Below, piece after piece: positions 25,084-37,122 of a stretch of DNA of 42,615 bases. Each line of letters begins with the position of its first letter. Position 1 is the first letter of the stretch. The position numbers were made by a program, and so were the translations under genes. Origin of the DNA: Gemmatimonadota bacterium (GTDB lineage Bacteria; Gemmatimonadota; Gemmatimonadetes; Gemmatimonadales; Gemmatimonadaceae); assembly GCA_021299375.1 (NCBI GenBank), contig JAJTGR010000025.1:1-42615 (forward strand). The letters run 5' to 3'. The notes under the pieces are model-generated. The model was not told the origin of the DNA and searched no databases. It saw nothing but the letters and a program-made list of their open reading frames with translations.

Positions 25084-25112
25084 CGGGAATACTTCCGCCG
25101 CCGATTCCCTCT
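25084..25112 (+). promoter_or_regulatory. Candidate autoregulated ECF promoter
   Basis: CGGGAATA (25084-25091), 12 unconserved bases, then ATTCCCTCT (25104-25112). The same block with one change recurs at 31143-31171 before the copper/CHRD lipoprotein gene. GGGAAT and the later TCTA match the form of an ECF -35 (GGAAC-like) and -10 (TCTA-like) 17 bp apart. GGGAAT/ATTCCC is also an inverted repeat. The end lies 8 nt before the sigma-factor ATG, so the transcript could be leaderless. Confidence 0.55.
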
Positions 25113-25120
25113 ACCCCCGC

Positions 25121-25729
25121 ATGGCCACCCCAACCCGACACTCCATCGAAGACCGGCAGCGGGAGTACGAGGCTCTCGTGCTCCCGCACCTCGATCGCCT
25201 GCTGGGCTTCGCCGCGCGGCGTACGGCAACGCTGGTGGACGCCGAGGACGCCGTCCAGGACACCTGTGTGCGGGCGTGGGCAGCCTTCGACCAACTGCGG
25301 GACCCGCGACGAGTACGGGCGTGGCTCTATCGTATTCTGCGCACGGTGCTGAGTGAGTCGGTCGAGCGGCAGACCCGGCGGGCGCAGCTGTTGCCATTGT
25401 CGCGCCTCGACAACGTGCATGAAGCGCTCGTGACCACTGCCACCGATGGGGTGTTCGATGCGCTGGTGTCGCGACTCGACCGGGAGGTGCTCGAGGCAGC
25501 GCTGCAGGTGATCCCGCACGACTTCGCCACGGCCGTGGAGTTGCACGATATTGAAGGCTTCACCTACGCCGAGATTGCCGACACGGTGGGGGTACCCATC
25601 GGGACCGTGATGAGTCGCATGTCGCGCGGGCGCCGATTGCTGGCTGCGGTCATCGCTGAACGTGCGCGGGAATGGGCACTCGGTGCGCCGGCCGAAGGCC
25701 AACCCCGCCGTATTCCGAGGCCATCATGA
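25121..25729 (+). CDS. ECF-type RNA polymerase sigma factor
   Basis: This 202-residue sigma70-family factor has region 2 at about residues 15-85 (YEALVLPHLDRLLGFAARR, DAEDAVQDTCVRAWAAFDQL, RVRAWLYRILRTVL) and region 4 at about 125-178 (FATAVELHDIEGFTYAEIAD, then VPIGTVMSRMSRGRRLL). The linker and absence of other regions make it an ECF sigma. It overlaps the anti-sigma gene by ATGA. In such arrangements the anti-sigma holds the factor until an envelope signal releases it, and the factor then transcribes its own operon. The candidate promoter at 25084-25112 is consistent with this. Confidence 0.93.
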   Translation: MATPTRHSIEDRQREYEALVLPHLDRLLGFAARRTATLVDAEDAVQDTCVRAWAAFDQLRDPRRVRAWLYRILRTVLSESVERQTRRAQLLPLSRLDNVHEALVTTATDGVFDALVSRLDREVLEAALQVIPHDFATAVELHDIEGFTYAEIADTVGVPIGTVMSRMSRGRRLLAAVIAERAREWALGAPAEGQPRRIPRPS

Positions 25730-26616
25730 GAGAGTTCTGGCACAACGCTGTGCCTCGGCAACTGCCGGCGCAGTGGGCACAGGAGACCGAACAGCATGAG
25801 GCGATTGCCTCGTTGCTGGGAGCGTACGTTGACGGCGAGTTGCCGGCTGAGACGATGGGGCAGCTCGACGGGCATTTCGCGGTCTGCCGCCGCTGCTCAC
25901 GCGAAGTCCGCCTGCTGCGGGCCCTGGCGGCTGGGCTGGGCCAGACACGCGGACCGGTAGGGTCGGCCGCGCTGCAGACGCGCATTCGCCAGGCCGTGAG
26001 CGCGACGTCGGCCCCGCCGGCACGATCGCATCCGCTCCGTCGGGGACTGGGTGTGCTGACTCTCTGGCGGGCACTCGCGCTGCTCACAATGCTTGCCACC
26101 GGCGGGTTCATCACCACGCAGGTCACCAGCCGCCGCGCCGCCTTCCCCGCCGTGTCGACGGTGGCGATCGATCGTGATGACTTGCTCGACTCCCTGTCCA
26201 CGCGTTGGCAGGCACTGGCCACGCAGGATCTTCCTGGGCGCGCTCGCGATCTCGACGCCGTACGCTCGGCGCTGGGTGTTCCAGTCACGCCGCTCGAAGG
26301 CCCCGGCCTCACCTTGGCCAGGGCGTGGACCACGAGCGTCACGGGCGAGCTGATGGGAGCGCTCGCGTATCGCCATGACGGTCGGCTCCTGATGCAGTTC
26401 ATCGTGCCGGGCGCCGTGTCTGCGCCAACCGGCGCGCTGCGGGCCGCGCTGCAGGTCGCGCCACTCGTGACCGCGTCGAGTGATTCGCTGACGATCGTGG
26501 TGTGGAATGCGTCCAGCGGGATGCACGTGCTTGTGGGGCCGGACTCGCCCGACATGCTGCGTGTGCTGGCCACCACGCAACTCCGGATGAACGGTGCCAA
26601 CCGGCCACGCCCCTGA
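25726..26616 (+). CDS. Zinc-finger (ZAS) anti-sigma factor, membrane-bound
   Basis: This 296-residue protein has the zinc anti-sigma domain at about residues 24-60: the short ZAS core LLGAYVDGELPAETMGQLDGHFAVCRRC (in parts), with His50-x3-Cys54-x2-Cys57. One membrane helix follows (about 108-130, GVLTLWRALALLTMLATGG) and then an extracytoplasmic domain of about 165 residues (DLPGRARDLDAVRSALGV, MHVLVGPDSPDMLRVL). A single-span topology puts the ZAS end in the cytoplasm holding the sigma factor and the C-terminus in the periplasm as the sensor or protease target. The sigma stop and this ATG overlap as ATGA. Confidence 0.9.
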   Translation: MREFWHNAVPRQLPAQWAQETEQHEAIASLLGAYVDGELPAETMGQLDGHFAVCRRCSREVRLLRALAAGLGQTRGPVGSAALQTRIRQAVSATSAPPARSHPLRRGLGVLTLWRALALLTMLATGGFITTQVTSRRAAFPAVSTVAIDRDDLLDSLSTRWQALATQDLPGRARDLDAVRSALGVPVTPLEGPGLTLARAWTTSVTGELMGALAYRHDGRLLMQFIVPGAVSAPTGALRAALQVAPLVTASSDSLTIVVWNASSGMHVLVGPDSPDMLRVLATTQLRMNGANRPRP

Positions 26617-26689
26617 CGCCGACGTCCGCAGTCGCCATCGGTAATGCCCGTACATTGCCAATCCGCAGCACCATCGCCCTATTGGTGGT

Positions 26690-28075
26690 GTGCCTGCCGA
26701 TCCCACGAGTCGTCCACCGCGCGTTGCTGGTACTGGCGCTGCCCTGCTGACGGGCGCGCTGGTGCTGCTGTCGGCACCCGTGGCCTCGGCGCAGCAGCGC
26801 GACAGCATACCACGCGATCGGGGGCAGCGCACCACCACGCTCGACTCCCTCGCTGCGCAACTCGCACGAACCGACTCCGCGCTCGCGCTGCTGCGGCAGC
26901 AAGTCGCTACGGAATCGGTGACTGCGGTGCGGATGCGCTCGCGCATTCAGCTCGACCTGTCGGCGCGTCTGGTACTGAACAGTTCCTTGACGACGGGTGC
27001 AGTGTCCGCCGCCGAGCTGCCGATCTTTGCCGCCCCGTCGCGCGCCAACGCCAATACGTTGGCCATGGCGCCCTCGGTATTCGGCATATCCATGCGTCAG
27101 GCATTGCTGGGTGGCAGTGTGAGCATGGACAGCGTTGCGGGCGCCACGCTGCTTGCCGATTTCGAGCTGGATTTTTTTGCGCGCGCGCTCGAGGCTGCCC
27201 CGCCGCTGTTTCCCGAGCCGCGGCTGCGGACGGCGCGTGTGTTTCTGCTGTGGCCGCGCACCGAGGTGATGTTCGGCATGGAGACGCCACTCATTTCGGA
27301 TCTCAACCCGATCAGCACGGCCGGCGTGGCCATCCCGGTCTTTGCTGGTGCAGGCAACTTGTGGAACTGGTTGCCGCAGCTGCGCCTCACACAGACGCTC
27401 GCGACCCGCGGTCAGTGGAGCGCGGCGGTGCAGGGCGCGGTGATCTCACCAAACGCCTCCGAACGCGCGGTATCCGCCACACCGGCCACGGACATCGGGC
27501 AGGCCAGCGCACGACCGGCGGTCGAATCGCGCCTTCGCCTGCGCCACGGGGTCGCGCTCGATGACCAACCAGCGCAGGGTGTGCTCACCTCGGGGTTCGA
27601 GGTGGGTATCGGCACTCACCGCGGCTGGCTTCGTCCATCGCGTGATGGGCTCCTCACGAGTTGGGCGCTGACGGCCGATATGCGCGCGTCGCTTGGCCAC
27701 GGCGTGGAAATCCGCGGGGAGGCCTACCGTGGCTCCTTGCTGCGCGGACTGGGCGGCGGCGGCATCGGCCAGAACTTCGGCACGCTGGGGCTGGCCCCGA
27801 CGGACGTGGGCGCCCCACTCACGGACGTTGCCGGTTGGTTGCAGGTGAACGCGCAGTGGCACCCCATGCTGAGCCATGGCGTGGGCTGCGGTACCGCCCG
27901 CGTCGTGGGCAACCGCGCCGACCGCCGTCGCAACACGGTATGCACCGGGCACGCCACGTGGCGTCCCGCCGTGCCCCTCTTCGTGAGCCTCGAGTACCGC
28001 GGGCTCCGAACACGCTACAGCGACGGTCCCTGGAGTGCGCGGCACTGGAACCTGGCCATCGGGATCGACCTGTGA
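26690..28075 (+). CDS. Outer-membrane beta-barrel protein, DcaP-porin-like
   Basis: The 461 residues start at a GTG (26690); the signal sequence runs to SAPVASAQ (about residue 35). A short coiled coil follows (TTLDSLAAQLARTDSALALLRQQV, in parts, about 47-72), then a long beta-rich part: IQLDLSARLVLNSSL, ATLLADFELDFF, RLRTARVFLLWPRTEVMFGMETP, NLWNWLPQLRLTQTL. It ends with the membrane-directing strand RHWNLAIGIDL. The coiled coil plus barrel pattern resembles DcaP-like porins. CGTARVV and TVCTGHA near 400-420 carry a Cys pair. It lies 73 bp after the anti-sigma gene and ends in a GTGA overlap with the cupredoxin gene. Confidence 0.75.
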   Translation: MPADPTSRPPRVAGTGAALLTGALVLLSAPVASAQQRDSIPRDRGQRTTTLDSLAAQLARTDSALALLRQQVATESVTAVRMRSRIQLDLSARLVLNSSLTTGAVSAAELPIFAAPSRANANTLAMAPSVFGISMRQALLGGSVSMDSVAGATLLADFELDFFARALEAAPPLFPEPRLRTARVFLLWPRTEVMFGMETPLISDLNPISTAGVAIPVFAGAGNLWNWLPQLRLTQTLATRGQWSAAVQGAVISPNASERAVSATPATDIGQASARPAVESRLRLRHGVALDDQPAQGVLTSGFEVGIGTHRGWLRPSRDGLLTSWALTADMRASLGHGVEIRGEAYRGSLLRGLGGGGIGQNFGTLGLAPTDVGAPLTDVAGWLQVNAQWHPMLSHGVGCGTARVVGNRADRRRNTVCTGHATWRPAVPLFVSLEYRGLRTRYSDGPWSARHWNLAIGIDL

Positions 28076-28080
28076 GCCGC

Positions 28081-28776
28081 ATGGCGCGTAGGCCGAGCGT
28101 ACACATCGTCGGCCTGTGCATCGTCGGCCTGTGCATCGGCGTCACGGGAATCCTCGGTGCGCAGGGTACGGTGCGCGGGCAGGTGCGGCTTATCGAGCGT
28201 GCCGGGGCCACACCAGCGGCCCTGGGCGATGTGGTCATCACGCTCGATGGTGAGTCCGGGCCGTTGCGGGCCCCGGCGTGGCTGCAGAAGGCGTCGGTGG
28301 GCATGCGCCTGCGTGAGTTCGAGCCGCGTGTCCAGATCGTCGGCGTGGGGGGGAGCGTGGCCTATCCCAATCAGGATCCCTTCAGCCACAACGTCTTCTC
28401 CAATTCGTCCCTCGGCGCATTCGATCTCGGGCTCTACCGCTCGGGGAAAACGCGCGCGGCCACGTTCAACGCGCCGGGCGTGTACGCGGTCTACTGCAAC
28501 ATCCACGCGCGCATGGTGAACTACGTGGTGGCCGTGCGTACGCCGTATGTCACGCGGGCGCGAGCGGACGGTTCGTTCGCCATTGAGGACGTTCCGGCCG
28601 GAACATGGACCATGCGGGTGTGGCATGAACGGGCCGCGGAGCATGTGGAAACCATCCGGGTCATTCCCGAGGGAGTCACGCTCACCCTCGCCCTCGATGC
28701 GCGCGGGTATGTGGCCAAGTCGCACCGCAACAAGTTCGGGCAGGCGTACTCGGCCACCCGCGCCGACCGGTATTGA
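28081..28776 (+). CDS. Secreted cupredoxin (type-1 copper) protein
   Basis: The 231 residues start MARRPSVHIVGLC; a GTG at 28072 in the GTGA overlap would add three residues. After the signal (to about residue 27) a strand domain begins with VRGQVRLIERAG. The copper site is of the methylamine-utilisation/plastocyanin type: His103 (FSHNVFS), Cys139, His142 and Met145 in VYCNIHARM, the compact C-x2-H-x2-M loop. A carboxypeptidase-regulatory-like tail (160-205, DGSFAIEDVPAGTWTMRVWHE) follows. It probably carries electrons or binds copper in the periplasm. The next gene starts inside its stop codon (TTGA), so the two are coupled. Confidence 0.88.
   Translation: MARRPSVHIVGLCIVGLCIGVTGILGAQGTVRGQVRLIERAGATPAALGDVVITLDGESGPLRAPAWLQKASVGMRLREFEPRVQIVGVGGSVAYPNQDPFSHNVFSNSSLGAFDLGLYRSGKTRAATFNAPGVYAVYCNIHARMVNYVVAVRTPYVTRARADGSFAIEDVPAGTWTMRVWHERAAEHVETIRVIPEGVTLTLALDARGYVAKSHRNKFGQAYSATRADRY
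28104..28133 (+). repeat. 15-bp in-frame duplication in a signal peptide
   Basis: CATCGTCGGCCTGTG occurs twice in tandem (28104-28118, 28119-28133) and a third copy begins. It encodes the repeated IVGLC-IVGLC in the signal peptide of the cupredoxin protein and is in frame. Confidence 0.9.
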
Positions 28777-30893
28777 CAGTGCCCGCAACACCGGTGGCCG
28801 CGGCACCTTGGCACCGCCTGTCGTGGCGGGTGTTCAGCGGCACCGCCGCTCTGGTCGCCATACTCCTCGCCGCGGTATTGGGGTTGGCGACCGTTGGCGT
28901 TCGTCGCGCCGCCCGCGAGTTGGCACAGCAGACGTTGGAGCAATCGGCCGACCTGGCGGCCCAACTGCTCGCTGGGCGCGGACGCAGTCTCGGTGGCGGC
29001 GCCCGCGTCTTCGTGCAGGGACCGTACTTCCGCACACTCGTCGCGGAGCGACGTCGCGACGACATTCTCGATCAGACATTCGAGGCCGCCGAGCAGCTCG
29101 ATGCAGCGTGGGTGTTCATTACTGATGAGGAAGGCAACCTCATCGCCAAGTCGGACGAGCCATCGGCCGTTGGAGAGCCCATGGCGCGGGTACCCCTGGT
29201 CTCGGCGGCTCTGCGCGGACAGGTCACCACCGGGTACGGCGGCTCCGGCGACTCGTTGCTGTTTCAGGCAACGGCGGTGCCGGTTGCCGCGCCGGGCGGC
29301 ATGCCCTTTGGTGTCCTGGTGGCCACGCGCGTACTCGACAGCCTCACGGCCGCTGACATCGCGCTCGCGACCAATCAGGCCGTGGTGTTCTTCGTGCTCG
29401 ACGAATCCGGCCACATCCGTGTGTCGGCGACGAGCCTCTCCAACGACCAGCCGCTCCGTACGGCTGTCACGCGGGCCATTGCCAGTATGCCGGTGACCGG
29501 CGGTGCTGCACACCAGGAAATGATTCACGCGGGACGTACATGGATCTTGCACCGCAGTACACTCGCCACCGCTGGTGGGATGCCGGTCGGCGGATATGTC
29601 GTACTGCGCCCGAGCGATGAAGCACTCACCACGCTGTTGCCGGTGCAGCGCTCGCTCCTGTTGGCAGCACTGCTCGGCGGGCTGTGCGCGCTTGCGGCTG
29701 GTGCCCTCACGTCGCGCGCGATCGCTACCCCGGTGGCCGTCATGGCGCAGCAGGTGCAGCAACTCGTGGAGCAAGGCGAGGTCACCGGCGCGGCCGCACG
29801 TGCCACACTCACCACCAGTCGCTTCGCCTCGGTCGAGGTGTCGGCCCTGGCCAACGCAGTCCAGGCGCTGGTCACCGAAACCACCGACCAGGACATCCTG
29901 CGGGCGCTCGTGTCATTGCAGCCGAGCCCGGACGTTGAGACGAGACGTGCCCCACGCGGACGCGCGCGCACTCTGGCGTTCCGCGCCGCAGCCGGACGCA
30001 CGATCACGTGGGCGCCGGGCATGGTATTCGCCGGTCGCTATCGCCTCGACGCTGAACTTGGTCGTGACGAGGGTGGGGTGCTCTTCCGAGCGCGCGATGT
30101 GCCGCGCAGCGAGGTGGTCGCGCTGCGTCTGCTGCGCACCGACGCGTTGCCGACGGGCGAGCGTGCGTCGGGAGCGGTCGTCGACAGCATGCTCGCGGCA
30201 GCCACGCACCTCATGTCGCTCGCCCCACACCGACATCTCGTGCGGGTGTACGATGCCGGCATTGTCGACGACACAGGCTTCCTGAGCACGGAGTTCGTCG
30301 ATGGGGTTGCGCTTTCCACCATCCTGCAGGGCCTGGCTCCGCTCGAGCCGGGCCAAGTGGCCGCCATTGCACGGCAGTGTCTGCAGGGATTGTCGGCGTT
30401 GCATGCGCAACGCGTGCTGCATGGCTGTCTCAACACGCACACGCTGCTCGTGTCACGCGCCGGAGTGCTGAAGCTCGCCGAGGGCGGTATGGCCACGGCG
30501 AATGCACCCCGGCGAGCGGCCATGACAGCGTACGTGGCTCCCGAAGTGCTCATAGGCGGGGCGGCATCGCCCCAGAGCGATCTGTACGCGGTCGGCGTCC
30601 TGTTGCATGAGTGTCTCACCGGCAGCACTCCATTTGCATCGCAAGACTTCATCGAAGTTCTTGGCGCCAAGCTCGCCGCGACGCCGCTGGGTGGCACGGC
30701 CGTGCCGACGCCGCGCGCGCCAGCACAGGCGACCGATGGCGCGCTGCGCTCCACTGCACTGCTGACCCTGCTCTCCACGATGACGCATGCCGATGTGACC
30801 CGTCGCCCCTCGTCGGCCAATGCGGCGCTTCAGGAATGGATTGGCGTGGGGCAACGCGTCAACGGGCGGCGCGAGCGCTGCCTGGGTGAGTGA
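28773..30893 (+). CDS. Membrane sensor fused to a serine/threonine pseudokinase
   Basis: This 706-residue protein has a TM helix at about 22-44, an extracytoplasmic region to about 285 with two Cache-like halves (AAWVFITDEEGNLIAKSDEP; VVFFVLDESGHIRVSAT), a TM helix (292-316) and a HAMP-like linker (PVAVMAQQVQQLVEQGE). From about 420 to 690 there is a protein-kinase fold. APE (589-591) and SDLYAVGVLLHECLTG are intact, so the fold is certain, but catalytic motifs are lost: VALRLL instead of VAxK (Arg452), HGCLNTHTLL at 550-559 instead of HRDLKxxN, and AEG (569-571) instead of DFG. It is therefore a probable pseudokinase. Start is TTG at 28773 overlapping the previous stop, or GTG at 28779. Confidence 0.88.
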   Translation: MTVPATPVAAAPWHRLSWRVFSGTAALVAILLAAVLGLATVGVRRAARELAQQTLEQSADLAAQLLAGRGRSLGGGARVFVQGPYFRTLVAERRRDDILDQTFEAAEQLDAAWVFITDEEGNLIAKSDEPSAVGEPMARVPLVSAALRGQVTTGYGGSGDSLLFQATAVPVAAPGGMPFGVLVATRVLDSLTAADIALATNQAVVFFVLDESGHIRVSATSLSNDQPLRTAVTRAIASMPVTGGAAHQEMIHAGRTWILHRSTLATAGGMPVGGYVVLRPSDEALTTLLPVQRSLLLAALLGGLCALAAGALTSRAIATPVAVMAQQVQQLVEQGEVTGAAARATLTTSRFASVEVSALANAVQALVTETTDQDILRALVSLQPSPDVETRRAPRGRARTLAFRAAAGRTITWAPGMVFAGRYRLDAELGRDEGGVLFRARDVPRSEVVALRLLRTDALPTGERASGAVVDSMLAAATHLMSLAPHRHLVRVYDAGIVDDTGFLSTEFVDGVALSTILQGLAPLEPGQVAAIARQCLQGLSALHAQRVLHGCLNTHTLLVSRAGVLKLAEGGMATANAPRRAAMTAYVAPEVLIGGAASPQSDLYAVGVLLHECLTGSTPFASQDFIEVLGAKLAATPLGGTAVPTPRAPAQATDGALRSTALLTLLSTMTHADVTRRPSSANAALQEWIGVGQRVNGRRERCLGE

Positions 30894-31142: not shown

Positions 31143-31171
31143 CGGGAATATCTGGCCGGCTCATCCCCTCT
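31143..31171 (+). promoter_or_regulatory. Second copy of the candidate ECF promoter
   Basis: CGGGAATA-N12-ATCCCCTCT, matching the block before the sigma gene at all but one of the 17 fixed positions and at identical spacing. It lies 55 bp before the ATG of the copper/CHRD lipoprotein. The remaining 30894-31142 shows no gene. Confidence 0.5.
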
Positions 31172-31226: not shown

Positions 31227-32537
31227 ATGTCGTCACCAATGCAGCACCTCGCGCGGATGGGTGCGGTCCTTCTAGTCAGTTCGACGGTCGGATGCGGCGG
31301 AGGCAGTGATGGCGGCACCACGCCGGCCCCGACCGCTGCCAGCATTACCCTGTCGGGGTCGTCCAGCGGCGCGCTCGTGAGCGTCGGGGACACACGGACC
31401 ATCACCGCCGCCGTGGCCGACGCAAGGGGCGCCAGCATGTCGGTGGCCTCCGTCACCTGGACGACCAGCGACGCCAGAGTGGCGACAGTCGCCGGCACCG
31501 GCACCACCGCTACCGTCACCGCCACGGGGAACGGCAGCGCGACCATCACCGCCTCGAGCGGCACGGCGCGCAACACCATCACGGTGGATGTCGCGCAGCG
31601 CTTCTCACAACTCACCGCCACGCTTGGCGTCGCGAGCATGGCCATCGGCACCACCAGTACGCTCACGGTCACCCCCCGTGACGCGCGCGGGACCGCGATG
31701 GCTGCGACGAGTGGCGCCACCTTTGCCACCAGTGATCGCACCAGGGCCCTCGTCGACGCCAACGGCCTCGTGACCGCGGTAGCCCCCGGCGCAGCCACCA
31801 TCACGACCACCCTGACCCGCGACGGAACCACGGCCACCGCCACGGCGAACGTGACGGTGGCGCCGCCAGCGGCGGCGACCCCGGCTGTGACCGTGCAGGC
31901 GACCGATGCAAGCCTCTTCACACCGCCGACGGTTACGGTCGCGCAGGGAGGGACGGTCACGTGGAGCTTTGGTGGCATCGGCCACAACGTGATCTTCCAG
32001 TCGAGCAGCGCACCCTCGAACATTGGGGTCACGTCGAGCGCCACCGCGCAGCGCGTGTTCGAAACGATCGGCAGCTATCCGTACGCCTGTACCTTGCACG
32101 CCGGCATGACGGGTACGGTGAACGTGGTGGCAAGCGCCCTCTTCACGCAGATGAACGGGGCCAACGAGCGACCGAACGCCGTGAACACCGCGGCCAACGG
32201 CGCCGCCGTGTTCACGCGCAGTGGCTCGGCGATGAGCTACACCATCACGTACCAAGGTATCGCGAGCAATCCCACCGGGCTGCATATCCACGCGCCGGCC
32301 GGGCCGAACGGCACAGCCGGTATCATTGTCGATCTCATGCGTACGCCCGTGACCGGCACCAGCGGTGTGCTCACCGGATCGTTCACGGCCTCAGACATTC
32401 GCGGAATCGGCGGCCAGCCGCCCATCACCCTCGATTCGCTGGTGACGATCCTTCGGAACGGGCAAGGCTATGTGAACGTGCACTCCTCCACATTCCCCGC
32501 CGGAGAGATCCGCGGTCAGCTTGGTCCCGCCAGCTAG
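31227..32537 (+). CDS. Lipoprotein with two Ig-like domains, a cupredoxin and a CHRD domain
   Basis: The 436 residues carry a lipoprotein signal with lipobox SSTVGC (Cys23) and a Gly-rich linker. Two bacterial Ig-like (Big_2) repeats follow (about 37-122, 125-211; SVTWTTSDARVATVAG, ATFATSDRTRALVDANG). Next is a cupredoxin with His253 (GIGHNVIF), Cys288, His291 and Met294 (YACTLHAGM). A CHRD domain (about 305-433) has GANERPNAV, TGLHIHAPAGPNGTAG and YVNVHSSTFPAGEIRGQL. ATG at 31227 has GGAGAG (31215-31220) 6 nt upstream; the longer open frame upstream has no signal peptide. It follows the pseudokinase gene by 333 bp with its own candidate promoter. The copper loop is the same C-x2-H-x2-M type as in the cupredoxin encoded upstream. 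Confidence 0.9.
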   Translation: MSSPMQHLARMGAVLLVSSTVGCGGGSDGGTTPAPTAASITLSGSSSGALVSVGDTRTITAAVADARGASMSVASVTWTTSDARVATVAGTGTTATVTATGNGSATITASSGTARNTITVDVAQRFSQLTATLGVASMAIGTTSTLTVTPRDARGTAMAATSGATFATSDRTRALVDANGLVTAVAPGAATITTTLTRDGTTATATANVTVAPPAAATPAVTVQATDASLFTPPTVTVAQGGTVTWSFGGIGHNVIFQSSSAPSNIGVTSSATAQRVFETIGSYPYACTLHAGMTGTVNVVASALFTQMNGANERPNAVNTAANGAAVFTRSGSAMSYTITYQGIASNPTGLHIHAPAGPNGTAGIIVDLMRTPVTGTSGVLTGSFTASDIRGIGGQPPITLDSLVTILRNGQGYVNVHSSTFPAGEIRGQLGPAS

Positions 32538-32986: not shown

Positions 32987-34303
32987 ATGACGACATTCCG
33001 GAGCATCCACGCGGCCATCGGTCGCCCCCATCACTGGCGGCGGCTGGCTGCCGTCACCATGCTGAGCGCGACGGCCGCGTGCGGCGACGGCTCGGCGGCC
33101 GGTCCGGAGCCGACCGGCACACTCGACTCGCTGACGGCCCTCCCGCGGACGCTCACGGCGACGGAGCAGCAGGGCGTGGCCGGCGTCAACGTGTTCGCCT
33201 ACAACCTGCTCAGGCAGGCCGCAGCCTCCAGCCCGGCTTCCGGCCAGCAACGCAACCTCCTGCTCTCACCGCTGAGCGTGCAGGTGGCCCTCGGGATGAC
33301 CATGAATGGCGCAGCCGGGACCACCTTCTCCCAGATGCAGCAGGTCCTGGGGTGGGGCGGGCGGTCGCGCGCGGAAATCAACGCCGCCTACAGGAGCCTG
33401 CTCGCACTGTTGCCCACGCTCGACTCGACCGTCACGGTGTCCGTCGGCAACGGCATCTGGACACGAACGAGCGCGGTGCCCGATACCAGCTTCGTGCGCG
33501 AGGCGCGGGAGTTCTTCTCGGCGCCGGTGCAGTCGGTGGCCACGGCCTCGCTCATGCGCGACTCGGTCAACGCGTGGGTCCAGCGCAGCACCCGCGGCCT
33601 GATCCCGACACTGCTGGAACAGGCGCCGCCCGACGATCTGCAGATGATGCTGGTCAATGCGGTCTATTTCGACGGCGCCTGGCGCGATCGGTTCGACATG
33701 AACAACACGCGCCTCGATGGCACGTTCACGCTGGCGTCCGGCGCGCCGGTCACCACGCCAATGATGCGGCGCACGGGTGGATTCAGCGTCAAGTCGACAA
33801 TCGACCTGGGCGCCGGCCGCACCGGCGTGGCCGCCGAGCTGCCGTTCGGCAACAGCGCCTACAGCATGCTGCTGCTGATGCCGACGACCGGGGGGGTCGA
33901 TGCCGTGATCCAGCGTCTGGATACGGCGTTCGTGGGGAGTGTCGTGCGCTCGCTGGAGCCGCAGACGCTGGCGTTCCTCGGGCTCCCACGCTTCACGCTG
34001 CGGGCGTCGCGCCAGCTGAACGGCGATCTGACGGCGCTCGGCATGTCGCAGGCCTTCAGCGATGCGGCGGAGTTCCCGCGGCTCGTGACGAACGTCCGGA
34101 CGAAGATCGGCTTCGTGCAGCACGGCGTGTCGATCGCGGTAACGGAGCGTGGTGCACGGGCCGGCGGCGCGACGGCCGTCGGCATCATGCCGGTAAGCTT
34201 GCCCCCGATCTACGAGTTCGACCGTCCGTTCGTGTTCATGATCCGCGAGCGCTTCACCGGCACGGTGCTCTTCATCGGCGTCGTCCACGACCCGCGCAGC
34301 TGA
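32987..34303 (+). CDS. Serpin-family protease inhibitor, exported lipoprotein
   Basis: This 438-residue serpin has a lipoprotein signal ending SATAAC (Cys32) and then about 400 residues of serpin fold: FAYNLLRQ, LLLSPLSVQVALGMTMNGAAG, VNAVYFDGAWRDRF with TPMM, LLMPTTGG, and the C-terminal DRPFVFMIRERFTGTVLFIG. The reactive-centre hinge is ERGARAGGAT (387-396), close to the inhibitory consensus (E-E-G-x-x-A-A-A-x-T) with small residues at P12-P9. By alignment the P1-P1' bond is Val403-Ser404, suggesting an elastase-like target. Bacterial serpins are uncommon; being surface- or periplasm-anchored, it would guard against the cell's own or foreign serine proteases. It forms a single-gene unit between two hairpins. 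Confidence 0.95.
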   Translation: MTTFRSIHAAIGRPHHWRRLAAVTMLSATAACGDGSAAGPEPTGTLDSLTALPRTLTATEQQGVAGVNVFAYNLLRQAAASSPASGQQRNLLLSPLSVQVALGMTMNGAAGTTFSQMQQVLGWGGRSRAEINAAYRSLLALLPTLDSTVTVSVGNGIWTRTSAVPDTSFVREAREFFSAPVQSVATASLMRDSVNAWVQRSTRGLIPTLLEQAPPDDLQMMLVNAVYFDGAWRDRFDMNNTRLDGTFTLASGAPVTTPMMRRTGGFSVKSTIDLGAGRTGVAAELPFGNSAYSMLLLMPTTGGVDAVIQRLDTAFVGSVVRSLEPQTLAFLGLPRFTLRASRQLNGDLTALGMSQAFSDAAEFPRLVTNVRTKIGFVQHGVSIAVTERGARAGGATAVGIMPVSLPPIYEFDRPFVFMIRERFTGTVLFIGVVHDPRS

Positions 34304-35403: not shown

Positions 35404-35967
35404 CTAATCGCGCCAGGGCCGCAGCTGCTCGCGCAGCACACGCAAGGCGCGGCTCATCTGGGTCTCCACCGTCTTCACGGACACCTCGAGGACCGTGGCG
35501 ATCTCATTGTACGTGAGACCGCGCGCCCGACTGAGCAGAAAGACTTCGCGGGCCCCGGGGGCGAGGCGGGCCAGCGCCTGCTGCAAGGCGTGCTGCAACT
35601 CGGTGGCGATCACGTCGTCGTCCACTCCCTCGGTGCGACTGGCCACCTGCGCCGCCCGTTCCGGATCGCTCGTGATGGTGCCATCCTGCCGCCGTCGGTC
35701 CCGCACGTGGTTGAGGGCGCGATTGCGGCAGGCCTGGTACAGATAGGCCGGCAAGCCGTCGGGGATGTCGACCGCCGCGCGGTTGCGCCACGTAGCGAGG
35801 AGTGCGTCCTGCACGATGTCCTCGGCGGCCACCCGGTCCCGCACGATCTGGTGCACCGCCGAGGCGAGCCGCGGATAGTGCGTGCGAACAATGTGGTCGA
35901 ACGCGTCGCTCGAGGCGGACTCGTCGGGCGCGGAGGACCGCGCAGGGAAGCGATCGAGCGGATGCAT
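35404..35967 (-). CDS. ECF-type sigma factor, FecI-like
   Basis: This 187-residue sigma factor has region 2 (HIVRTHYPRLASAVHQIVRD, AAEDIVQDALLATWRN, LPAYLYQACRNRALNHVRDR) and region 4 (LAPGAREVFLLSRARGLTYN, then VSVKTVETQMSRALRVLREQL). A TonB-receptor/FecR pair lies divergent to it, so this is the FecI-like member of a surface-signalling set. The order is unusual: the sigma is transcribed away from the FecR gene. ATG at 35965-35967 has a TATCCT box 8 nt upstream. The palindrome AACACGCGTGTT at 36001-36012 lies 34 bp upstream, between the divergent genes. Confidence 0.9.
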   Translation of the reverse strand: MHPLDRFPARSSAPDESASSDAFDHIVRTHYPRLASAVHQIVRDRVAAEDIVQDALLATWRNRAAVDIPDGLPAYLYQACRNRALNHVRDRRRQDGTITSDPERAAQVASRTEGVDDDVIATELQHALQQALARLAPGAREVFLLSRARGLTYNEIATVLEVSVKTVETQMSRALRVLREQLRPWRD

Positions 35968-36000
35968 GCGGGCCAAGGATATCGTGTCAGGGTACAAATG

Positions 36001-36012
36001 AACACGCGTGTT
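36001..36012. promoter_or_regulatory. 12-bp palindrome between divergent sigma and FecR genes
   Basis: AACACGCGTGTT is a perfect palindrome placed between the two starts (35967 and 36097). It could be an operator shared by both promoters. No regulator gene is assigned. Confidence 0.45.
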
Positions 36013-36096
36013 ATTCTGAATCAGGTGGCGTTCCGTGCCTCGGTGCGGTCGCGACTGCCGGCGCTTTCCGCTGCACCACCCTCCGTCTCTCCCCCG

Positions 36097-37122
36097 ATGT
36101 CGATGTCCGACCTCCCCCCTGACGACGATCTGCGCTGGGCTCAAGCCACGCGCTTGGTCGCGGGCGGGCTCGACGCCGACGACGCGGCGCGTATGCGCAG
36201 GTGGCTGTCGTCGACCCCCGATGGCGCCGCGCTGCTCGCGGAGGCGGAGCACGTGTGGACGGCCGCGAACCAACTGGGCGGCACCGGGCCCGTGGTGTGG
36301 GACACCGACGCCGCGATGCGGCGATTTGCCGAGGCCCGCGCGCGGGAGGCGCACGCTCCGCGCCCGGCGCGGACATCACGCGGGGGTGTCCGGACCCGCC
36401 AGCGTGTCCTTGCCGCGGCGGCGCTGGTTGGCGTACTGATCGGGGTCGGGTGGTGGCGCCAATCGGCATTCGCCCCGGCGTCGCGCCCCACGGACGCGTT
36501 GCGGCTGGTCGCGAAGGGAGGAGACGCGCCCGTGTCGGTGACGCTGGCCGATGGCTCGCGGGTGACACTCGCGCCGGGGAGTACGCTTCGCGGCGCCGCC
36601 GACTTCGGGCGCGCCCATCGGCAGCTGGAGCTGACGGGCGAGGCGCTGTTCACCGTGACACCGGGCGCCATGCCTTTCCGGGTACGGGTGGGGGACGTGC
36701 TGGTGGAGGATGTCAGCACCGCGTTCGCGGTTCGGGAGCGCAGCGAGGCCACGCTGGTCGCCGTGGTCGAGGGCGCGGTAGTGGTGGGAGCGCGCCGCGA
36801 CACGGTGCGCGCCGGTGCGGGGGGCCTGGCCACGGCGGCGGGACTGGTGGCCCCGATCGGGGCCGACGAGGTGCGCCGAGCGATCGCCTGGACAGGTGGC
36901 CAGCTGGTGTTCGACAACGAGCCCCTCGGCGATGTGGTCGGTCGCCTCAGCCGCTGGAGTGGGCGGACCATCGAGGTGGACGCCTCGATGGCGCATCGTC
37001 GCGTGACGGTCACGTTCGATGGGGAGTCGCCCGACGCGATGGTCGACGTGCTGGCCACCACCATCGGCGGACAGCTCCGCCCCACGGCGCTCGGGTGGAG
37101 GCTGAGCGAGCGGACCAGGTGA
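36097..37122 (+). CDS. FecR-family anti-sigma factor
   Basis: This 341-residue protein (ATG 36097, MSMSDLPPDDDLRWAQ) has an N-terminal cytoplasmic sigma-binding region (about 1-90, LVAGGLDADDAARMRRWLSS), one membrane helix (about 103-120, RVLAAAALVGVLIGVGWW) and the periplasmic FecR domain (about 128-230). The latter shows VSVTLADGSRVTLAPGSTLR, ALFTVTPGAMPFRVRVGDVL and VSTAFAVRER. The tail (about 265-340, DNEPLGDVVGRLSRW) is an STN-like/DUF4974 module that contacts the receptor's signalling domain. It overlaps the receptor gene by GTGA. FecR passes a signal from the outer-membrane receptor to the sigma factor. Confidence 0.92.
   Translation: MSMSDLPPDDDLRWAQATRLVAGGLDADDAARMRRWLSSTPDGAALLAEAEHVWTAANQLGGTGPVVWDTDAAMRRFAEARAREAHAPRPARTSRGGVRTRQRVLAAAALVGVLIGVGWWRQSAFAPASRPTDALRLVAKGGDAPVSVTLADGSRVTLAPGSTLRGAADFGRAHRQLELTGEALFTVTPGAMPFRVRVGDVLVEDVSTAFAVRERSEATLVAVVEGAVVVGARRDTVRAGAGGLATAAGLVAPIGADEVRRAIAWTGGQLVFDNEPLGDVVGRLSRWSGRTIEVDASMAHRRVTVTFDGESPDAMVDVLATTIGGQLRPTALGWRLSERTR

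Follow-up and report, generated by a model that had tools for sequence, protein, structure and literature searches.

What brings an extracytoplasmic function (ECF) sigma factor and its anti-sigma factor into one operon with an outer-membrane barrel, a copper protein and a membrane pseudokinase? The question is raised by positions 25121 to 30893 (+ strand) of the 42,615-nucleotide contig JAJTGR010000025.1, hereafter the window, which comes from the 4.48-Mb genome of a soil bacterium of the Gemmatimonadota. A preliminary description of this locus had recognized no described system in the combination and had proposed envelope copper or redox sensing, with the pseudokinase reporting through the sigma factor. 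Our whole analysis rests on sequence and predicted structure. Judged by its relatives, the operon is evidently a derived, clade-specific form of a wider module of barrel, cupredoxin and Cache sensor that usually carries no sigma factor. We give a probability of roughly 55% to the reading that it encodes an autoregulated envelope switch that takes its input from a periplasmic copper-protein/Cache sensor of redox state.

Our reading of the open reading frames reproduced the five genes of the preliminary description, all on the + strand, together with their junctions: an ATGA overlap at 25726, a 73-bp gap before 26690, a GTGA at 28072 and a TTGA at 28773. The genes had been said to be made together, and the overlaps, the lone upstream ECF promoter and the synteny of the locus lead us to infer that they form a single transcription unit. 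Given that the identical five genes recur in the identical order in 12 further genomes, the operon is more than a chance assembly. The unit also extends beyond 30893, given that a second copy of the promoter, missed in the preliminary description, precedes the next gene at 31144 to 31171. Nothing notable was found among inverted repeats in the operon region.

The conservation of the locus was followed through 249 evenly drawn Gemmatimonadota genomes, from which 40 loci, including a subset of those of the sigma-less type, were fetched and read. The barrel was present in 52 of the 249 genomes, nearly always adjoining the cupredoxin, and the Cache-kinase gene adjoined the cupredoxin in 38 of 38 loci not cut by a contig end. 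Two architectures were observed. In architecture A, the genes for sigma factor, anti-sigma, barrel, cupredoxin and Cache-kinase run in one direction; this exact ordered set, the object of the neighbourhood search suggested in the preliminary description, occurred in 13 of the 249 genomes (12 fetched loci plus the window). In architecture B, which accounts for nearly all other fetched loci, the barrel is divergent from the cupredoxin and Cache-kinase, with neither sigma nor anti-sigma, and two genomes (G080 and G203) carry both arrangements. The 13 architecture-A loci form one clade with a support of 100 in the tree of barrel and cupredoxin, and by this tree the sigma/anti-sigma architecture is seen to have arisen once. 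Other recurring neighbours, such as a 2-oxoglutarate dehydrogenase-like gene, look like clade synteny and were set aside as module parts.

Related modules with other outputs occur both within and beyond the phylum. At a locus from another class of the phylum (L090), a barrel and the cupredoxin are accompanied by a dCache_3-HAMP protein ending in HisKA-HATPase and then by a REC-HD-GYP gene, with a similar arrangement at L086, while in the genome G141 a membrane protein with HAMP and nucleotide cyclase domains comes after the cupredoxin. On plasmids of Proteobacteria the cupredoxin carries the annotation "methylamine utilization protein"; it has DUF3034/truncated haemoglobin or DUF4394 on one side and a Cache/EAL gene on the other. 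A scan of the proteobacterial cupredoxin alignment against 84,980 species genomes returned at least 567 relatives. Among the best 80 of these, whose contexts were read, a Cache-HAMP part was nearby in 78, in 76 with GGDEF-EAL, which was lacking only at contig ends and at one locus, from Rokubacteria, that has a histidine kinase. The Cache context was not built into this result, given that the loci were chosen by cupredoxin alone. DUF3034 and the truncated haemoglobin occurred together in 37 of the 80 and DUF4394 in 22. The proteobacterial module resembles the window in that a homologous cupredoxin is directly followed by a homologous dCache_3-HAMP sensor, with DUF3034 nearby in many cases and a divergent layout in Novosphingobium, but its output is cyclic di-GMP turnover rather than a kinase-like domain and a sigma factor. 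These comparisons show the sensor half as an old module in which the cytoplasmic output domain (Ser/Thr kinase, histidine kinase, cyclase or GGDEF-EAL) has been exchanged among lineages. We found no description of the module in the open-access papers searched (the full ECF reclassification lies outside that scope), including work on DUF3034, the "methylamine utilization" cupredoxin with GGDEF/EAL or truncated haemoglobin, cupredoxins and cyclic di-GMP, CHRD and sigma factors, or pseudokinases and anti-sigma factors. Separately, four Herbaspirillum loci (L140, L144, L150 and L181) have an ECF sigma gene some 500 bp beyond the truncated haemoglobin, which may represent an independent coupling of module and sigma factor.

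The predicted output in the window can be read from its promoters. An ECF-type promoter (-35 GGGAATA, 17-nucleotide spacer, -10 CTCT) spans positions 25085 to 25112 on the + strand and ends 8 nucleotides before the sigma start codon, a distance so short that the transcript is probably leaderless. The same element, GGGAATA (or AGGAATA or CGGAATA), 17 nucleotides and then GTC or CTC (usually CTCT or GTCT), precedes the sigma gene in 12 of the 13 architecture-A loci, with a spacing of exactly 17 nucleotides in 11. The pattern, built from the sigma-gene sites alone, found its second match in the window (GGGAATA-N17-CTCT, + strand), an exact one at 31145 to 31171, where 0.12 matches were expected with one mismatch allowed. 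In pattern searches of the whole genome, the strict form counted two sites, both here, and its reversed control none; a looser form gave one additional site elsewhere. The second site is kept at the same position in L041 to L045. Behind it, in the window and in L041 to L044, lies the gene of a predicted sigma target, a lipoprotein with Big_2, cupredoxin and CHRD domains. The window protein (31227 to 32537, + strand; assigned from Pfam, with lipobox and ligands read directly) has two Big_2 domains and all four copper ligands in its cupredoxin domain. CHRD lipoproteins are again found under the element in L047 and L050, which have a different layout, and L050 also has a Rieske protein divergently under it. 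In L045 the gene under the element encodes a membrane protein, a 41%-identical relative of which is under the element in the genome G071. Counted on both strands, the fetched architecture-A loci held 26 sites in 395 kb, versus 5 in 808 kb for architecture B. The best reading of these sites is a predicted autoregulated ECF switch with a very small, nearly private local regulon.

Three further observations concern the element. G071 (L218 to L223) has seven strict matches, including ones before a cupredoxin lipoprotein and an arylsulfotransferase, and its regulon may be larger. In L046 (11456 to 12092) the element precedes a second ECF sigma gene located directly after the kinase gene, which suggests a cascade. 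A promoter-like match, GGGAATATTGCGCAATGG..., was dismissed as background; it is identical in sigma-less genomes, looks like 16S ribosomal RNA and is one of several such matches elsewhere.

The sigma factor (25121 to 25729, + strand; 202 residues, Pfam Sigma70_r2 and r4_2) has no regions other than 2 and 4, and its region 2.2 holds a DAED motif that is kept, exactly or nearly so, in all 12 of the 13 architecture-A sigmas that could be read (the motif in L050 is the one not read). The overlapping anti-sigma gene (25726 to 26616, + strand) encodes 296 residues, with a cytoplasmic zinc anti-sigma domain (zf-HC2), a probable single membrane helix at about 108 to 127 and a conserved periplasmic C-terminal domain. 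In an alignment of 13 sequences the HxxxCxxC motif is invariant, in agreement with the zinc-binding anti-sigma assignment of the preliminary description, and the hydrophobic stretch is present in 13 of 13, with the helix weak in the window protein itself. The acidic motif, the HxxxCxxC motif with its helix and the ECF-type promoter are the features of an ECF sigma paired with a class I membrane anti-sigma, the autoregulation being read from sequence only. The window differs from the usual pairs of this kind in its permanent joining to a porin, a cupredoxin and a Cache-(pseudo)kinase, in its -35 GGGAATA and in a predicted regulon that is almost entirely local.

The main rival explanation is that of an ordinary ECF/anti-sigma pair in which the anti-sigma itself does the sensing, by its periplasmic domain, and the barrel, cupredoxin and pseudokinase are passenger targets. 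It draws on the conservation of that domain in a membrane anti-sigma, on the autoregulated promoter, which puts the five genes downstream of sigma, and on the decay of the kinase described below. We consider it unlikely nonetheless. The barrel, cupredoxin and Cache-kinase form a sensor-type module without sigma elsewhere, and the anti-sigma was never found without that module in the 249 genomes: the family at E <1e-28 comprised 13 genomes, each time at an architecture-A locus, with a clear gap from E 1e-29 to 1e-9 for the next best match in any of the 249.

A second proposal, phosphorylation of the sigma factor itself, has a precedent in ECF43, in which the kinase phosphorylates the sigma directly (PknT/EcfP, PknS/EcfK) (PMC13147305, PMC8103513); ECF43 sigmas have phosphorylatable residues in place of DAED and no anti-sigma (PMC8103513, PMC8999054). 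Like EcfP/PknT and EcfK/PknS, the window has a membrane protein of Ser/Thr kinase fold sharing an operon with an ECF sigma. It differs in that DAED is kept, the anti-sigma is always present and the window kinase is catalytically dead. Because of the kept DAED and the ever-present anti-sigma, we disfavour direct phosphorylation of sigma as very improbable.

The third subject of the preliminary description, the copper protein, is a secreted cupredoxin (28072 to 28776, + strand) with a carboxypeptidase-regulatory-like C-terminal domain and a conserved C-terminal tail. Its Pfam matches are weak (Copper-bind and CarboxypepD_reg-like, with NCBIfam also consulted), but against the PDB a profile built from nine cupredoxins picks out amicyanin, plastocyanin and the cupredoxin portion of nitrite reductases, and the type-1 ligands His, Cys, His and Met are all invariant across phyla. 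The window protein is thus a type-1 copper protein by its ligands and is predicted to bind copper. Its C-terminal tail may serve to dock the cupredoxin onto the Cache domain. A conserved tail, LDARG...HxNKFGxxY...RY, was observed on nearly all kinase-coupled cupredoxins (about 28700 to 28773 in the window; L041 to L079), and HxNKFG is absent from three annotated proteobacterial cupredoxins that were read.

Does copper itself act as the signal? Copper-ion sensing with a detoxification regulon would fit the control of two cupredoxins, each with a complete copper site, by a single sigma. Against this, genes for a copper ATPase, a multicopper oxidase or efflux were not seen among the recurring neighbours or predicted targets, and the proteobacterial companion is, in 37 of 80 loci, the truncated haemoglobin rather than a copper gene. 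Given the missing efflux and oxidase genes, the copper half of the earlier guess is not supported, and we judge this explanation improbable. Redox is the better half, given that secreted proteins of redox type (cupredoxin-CHRD, CHRD, Rieske and cupredoxin) make up the predicted targets.

The sensor gene (28773 to 30893, + strand) encodes 706 residues arranged as a first transmembrane helix, a periplasmic double Cache domain (dCache_3), a second transmembrane helix and a cytoplasmic Ser/Thr pseudokinase (Pkinase). In the structure model, the Cache domain has a predicted local distance difference test score (pLDDT) above 90 over most of its length, and the kinase fold is close to PknB/Stk1. A Hanks-type fold is therefore present in the window without the catalytic residues: VALR has no catalytic Lys, HGC no HRD Asp and AEG no DFG Asp. 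The readable architecture-B kinases all keep K/HRDxKPxN/DFG (DLG in the L063 copy). The HRD arginine is lost in all 13 architecture-A kinases (HG or HA), seven of which (L045, L046 and L048 to L052) are otherwise intact in Lys, Asp, Asn and DFG; in the remaining six (window, L041, L042, L043, L044 and L047) at least one catalytic residue is gone. Loss is thus 6/13 in architecture A versus 0/24 in architecture B (Fisher 7e-4), but on the tree these come down to two events, in the window's lineage and in L047. The pseudokinase of the preliminary description is borne out for the window, where a sensor of this kind is joined to an ECF switch in the envelope, but given that the kinase is dead in only part of the clade, it is not a defining part of the system.

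Conservation of the two halves of the sensor shifts along with this decay. Mean identity is 65% for the kinase and 36% for the Cache domain in architecture B, 56% and 57% in live-kinase architecture A, and 53% and 83% in the window's clade. In that dead-kinase clade the Cache domain (range, 78 to 88%) is more conserved than the kinase or the anti-sigma, which argues further against the sensor being a passenger. By these identities the sensor domain is evidently more constrained than the kinase it once drove. A c-type haem in the Cache domain (compare PMC12889525) was rejected for lack of CxxCH. The Cache-kinase of L079 has seven cysteines in its first 330 residues, versus none or one elsewhere, possibly a metal or disulphide variant.

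How could such a sensor reach the sigma factor? The Mycobacterium tuberculosis PknB/SigE/SigH system shares with the window a zinc anti-sigma and a PknB-like kinase fold. PknB is active there and encoded outside the operon, and the window differs in its dedicated Cache sensor and partial decay. Phosphorylation by PknB releases the zinc anti-sigmas of SigE and SigH (PMC8999054), which makes anti-sigma phosphorylation a fair model for those relatives whose kinases may still be live. A third rival takes this as the working of the switch, with the kinase phosphorylating the anti-sigma to free sigma and the step lost in the window's lineage. The seven otherwise intact kinases, and the presence of kinase and zinc anti-sigma in one operon, agree with it. 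The HRD arginine lost in 13 of 13 and the catalytic residues lost in 6 of 13 do not, and it cannot hold in the window, whose kinase has lost those residues; overall we regard it as rather unlikely. We tentatively entertain a different route as possible, in which a captured membrane kinase sensor lost catalysis and the dead kinase, moved by a Cache domain that reads the copper protein, would control the anti-sigma by contact. Such a contact between pseudokinase and anti-sigma is one we infer, and it is plausible that, as had been suggested, the signal of the pseudokinase runs through the sigma factor.

For the switch as a whole, we propose that the copper protein, loaded or reduced depending on the periplasmic redox state, would contact the Cache domain, the anti-sigma's periplasmic domain or both. 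Where relatives have live kinases, the signal may pass through anti-sigma phosphorylation; in the window's lineage it may pass through the pseudokinase-anti-sigma contact or straight to the anti-sigma. The anti-sigma would then free sigma, which would raise expression of the operon that encodes it and of the secreted cupredoxin-CHRD lipoprotein. This positive loop could supply periplasmic and surface electron-transfer proteins. Several points weigh against this redox-fed switch: the nature of the signal is a guess, the anti-sigma owns a periplasmic domain and could sense alone, the sensor genes could be targets rather than inputs given that they are located inside sigma's own operon, and L051 lacks the promoter element ahead of its sigma gene.

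The barrel (26690 to 28075, + strand; 461 residues) is an outer-membrane beta-barrel by its AlphaFold model (pLDDT 83; predicted template-modelling score 0.76), as the preliminary description had proposed. The model has an N-terminal helix followed by a long run of strands, and its best PDB match is the porin DcaP (6eus; E 8.6e-15, target template-modelling score 0.75, 13% identity). The predicted fold therefore resembles DcaP of Acinetobacter baumannii in its helix and porin barrel, but at that identity we found no shared sequence family. Neither Pfam nor NCBIfam gave a barrel match, and the fold was identified through the structure model only. Assignment to the DUF3034 family (PF11231) was rejected, with no Pfam match and no significant profile similarity, which also separates the window from the proteobacterial module, and profile comparison rejected the L090 barrel as a homologue. 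From the arrangements of these genes, the barrel is apparently separable from the core pair of cupredoxin and Cache-kinase. At L064 (G080:C2) and at L080/L078 (G081) the pair occurs without an adjoining barrel, which lies on a different contig.

Two neighbouring genes of the window may be recorded. A lipoprotein serpin (32987 to 34303; Pfam Serpin, E 1e-79) lies just 3' of the CHRD lipoprotein, with no ECF element found before it, and a second ECF-sigma-like open reading frame (35404 to 36375, - strand; Sigma70_r2, E 7e-14) is found some 5 kb downstream of the operon.

In summary, our study points to a widespread, undescribed envelope sensor, composed of a copper protein and a Cache receptor and found from Gemmatimonadota to Pseudomonas, that is tied here to a readable output. 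With its two promoters, exactly defined element and almost private regulon, this output would make the signal of the module testable with a reporter. The loci also form a natural series, from an active kinase without sigma, through a kinase with sigma, to a dead kinase with sigma, which lets one ask how a pseudokinase arises once another output takes over. If our reading is true, the window's lineage would have an ECF switch operated through a membrane pseudokinase, and the family would offer a case of output replacement on an exchangeable sensor.

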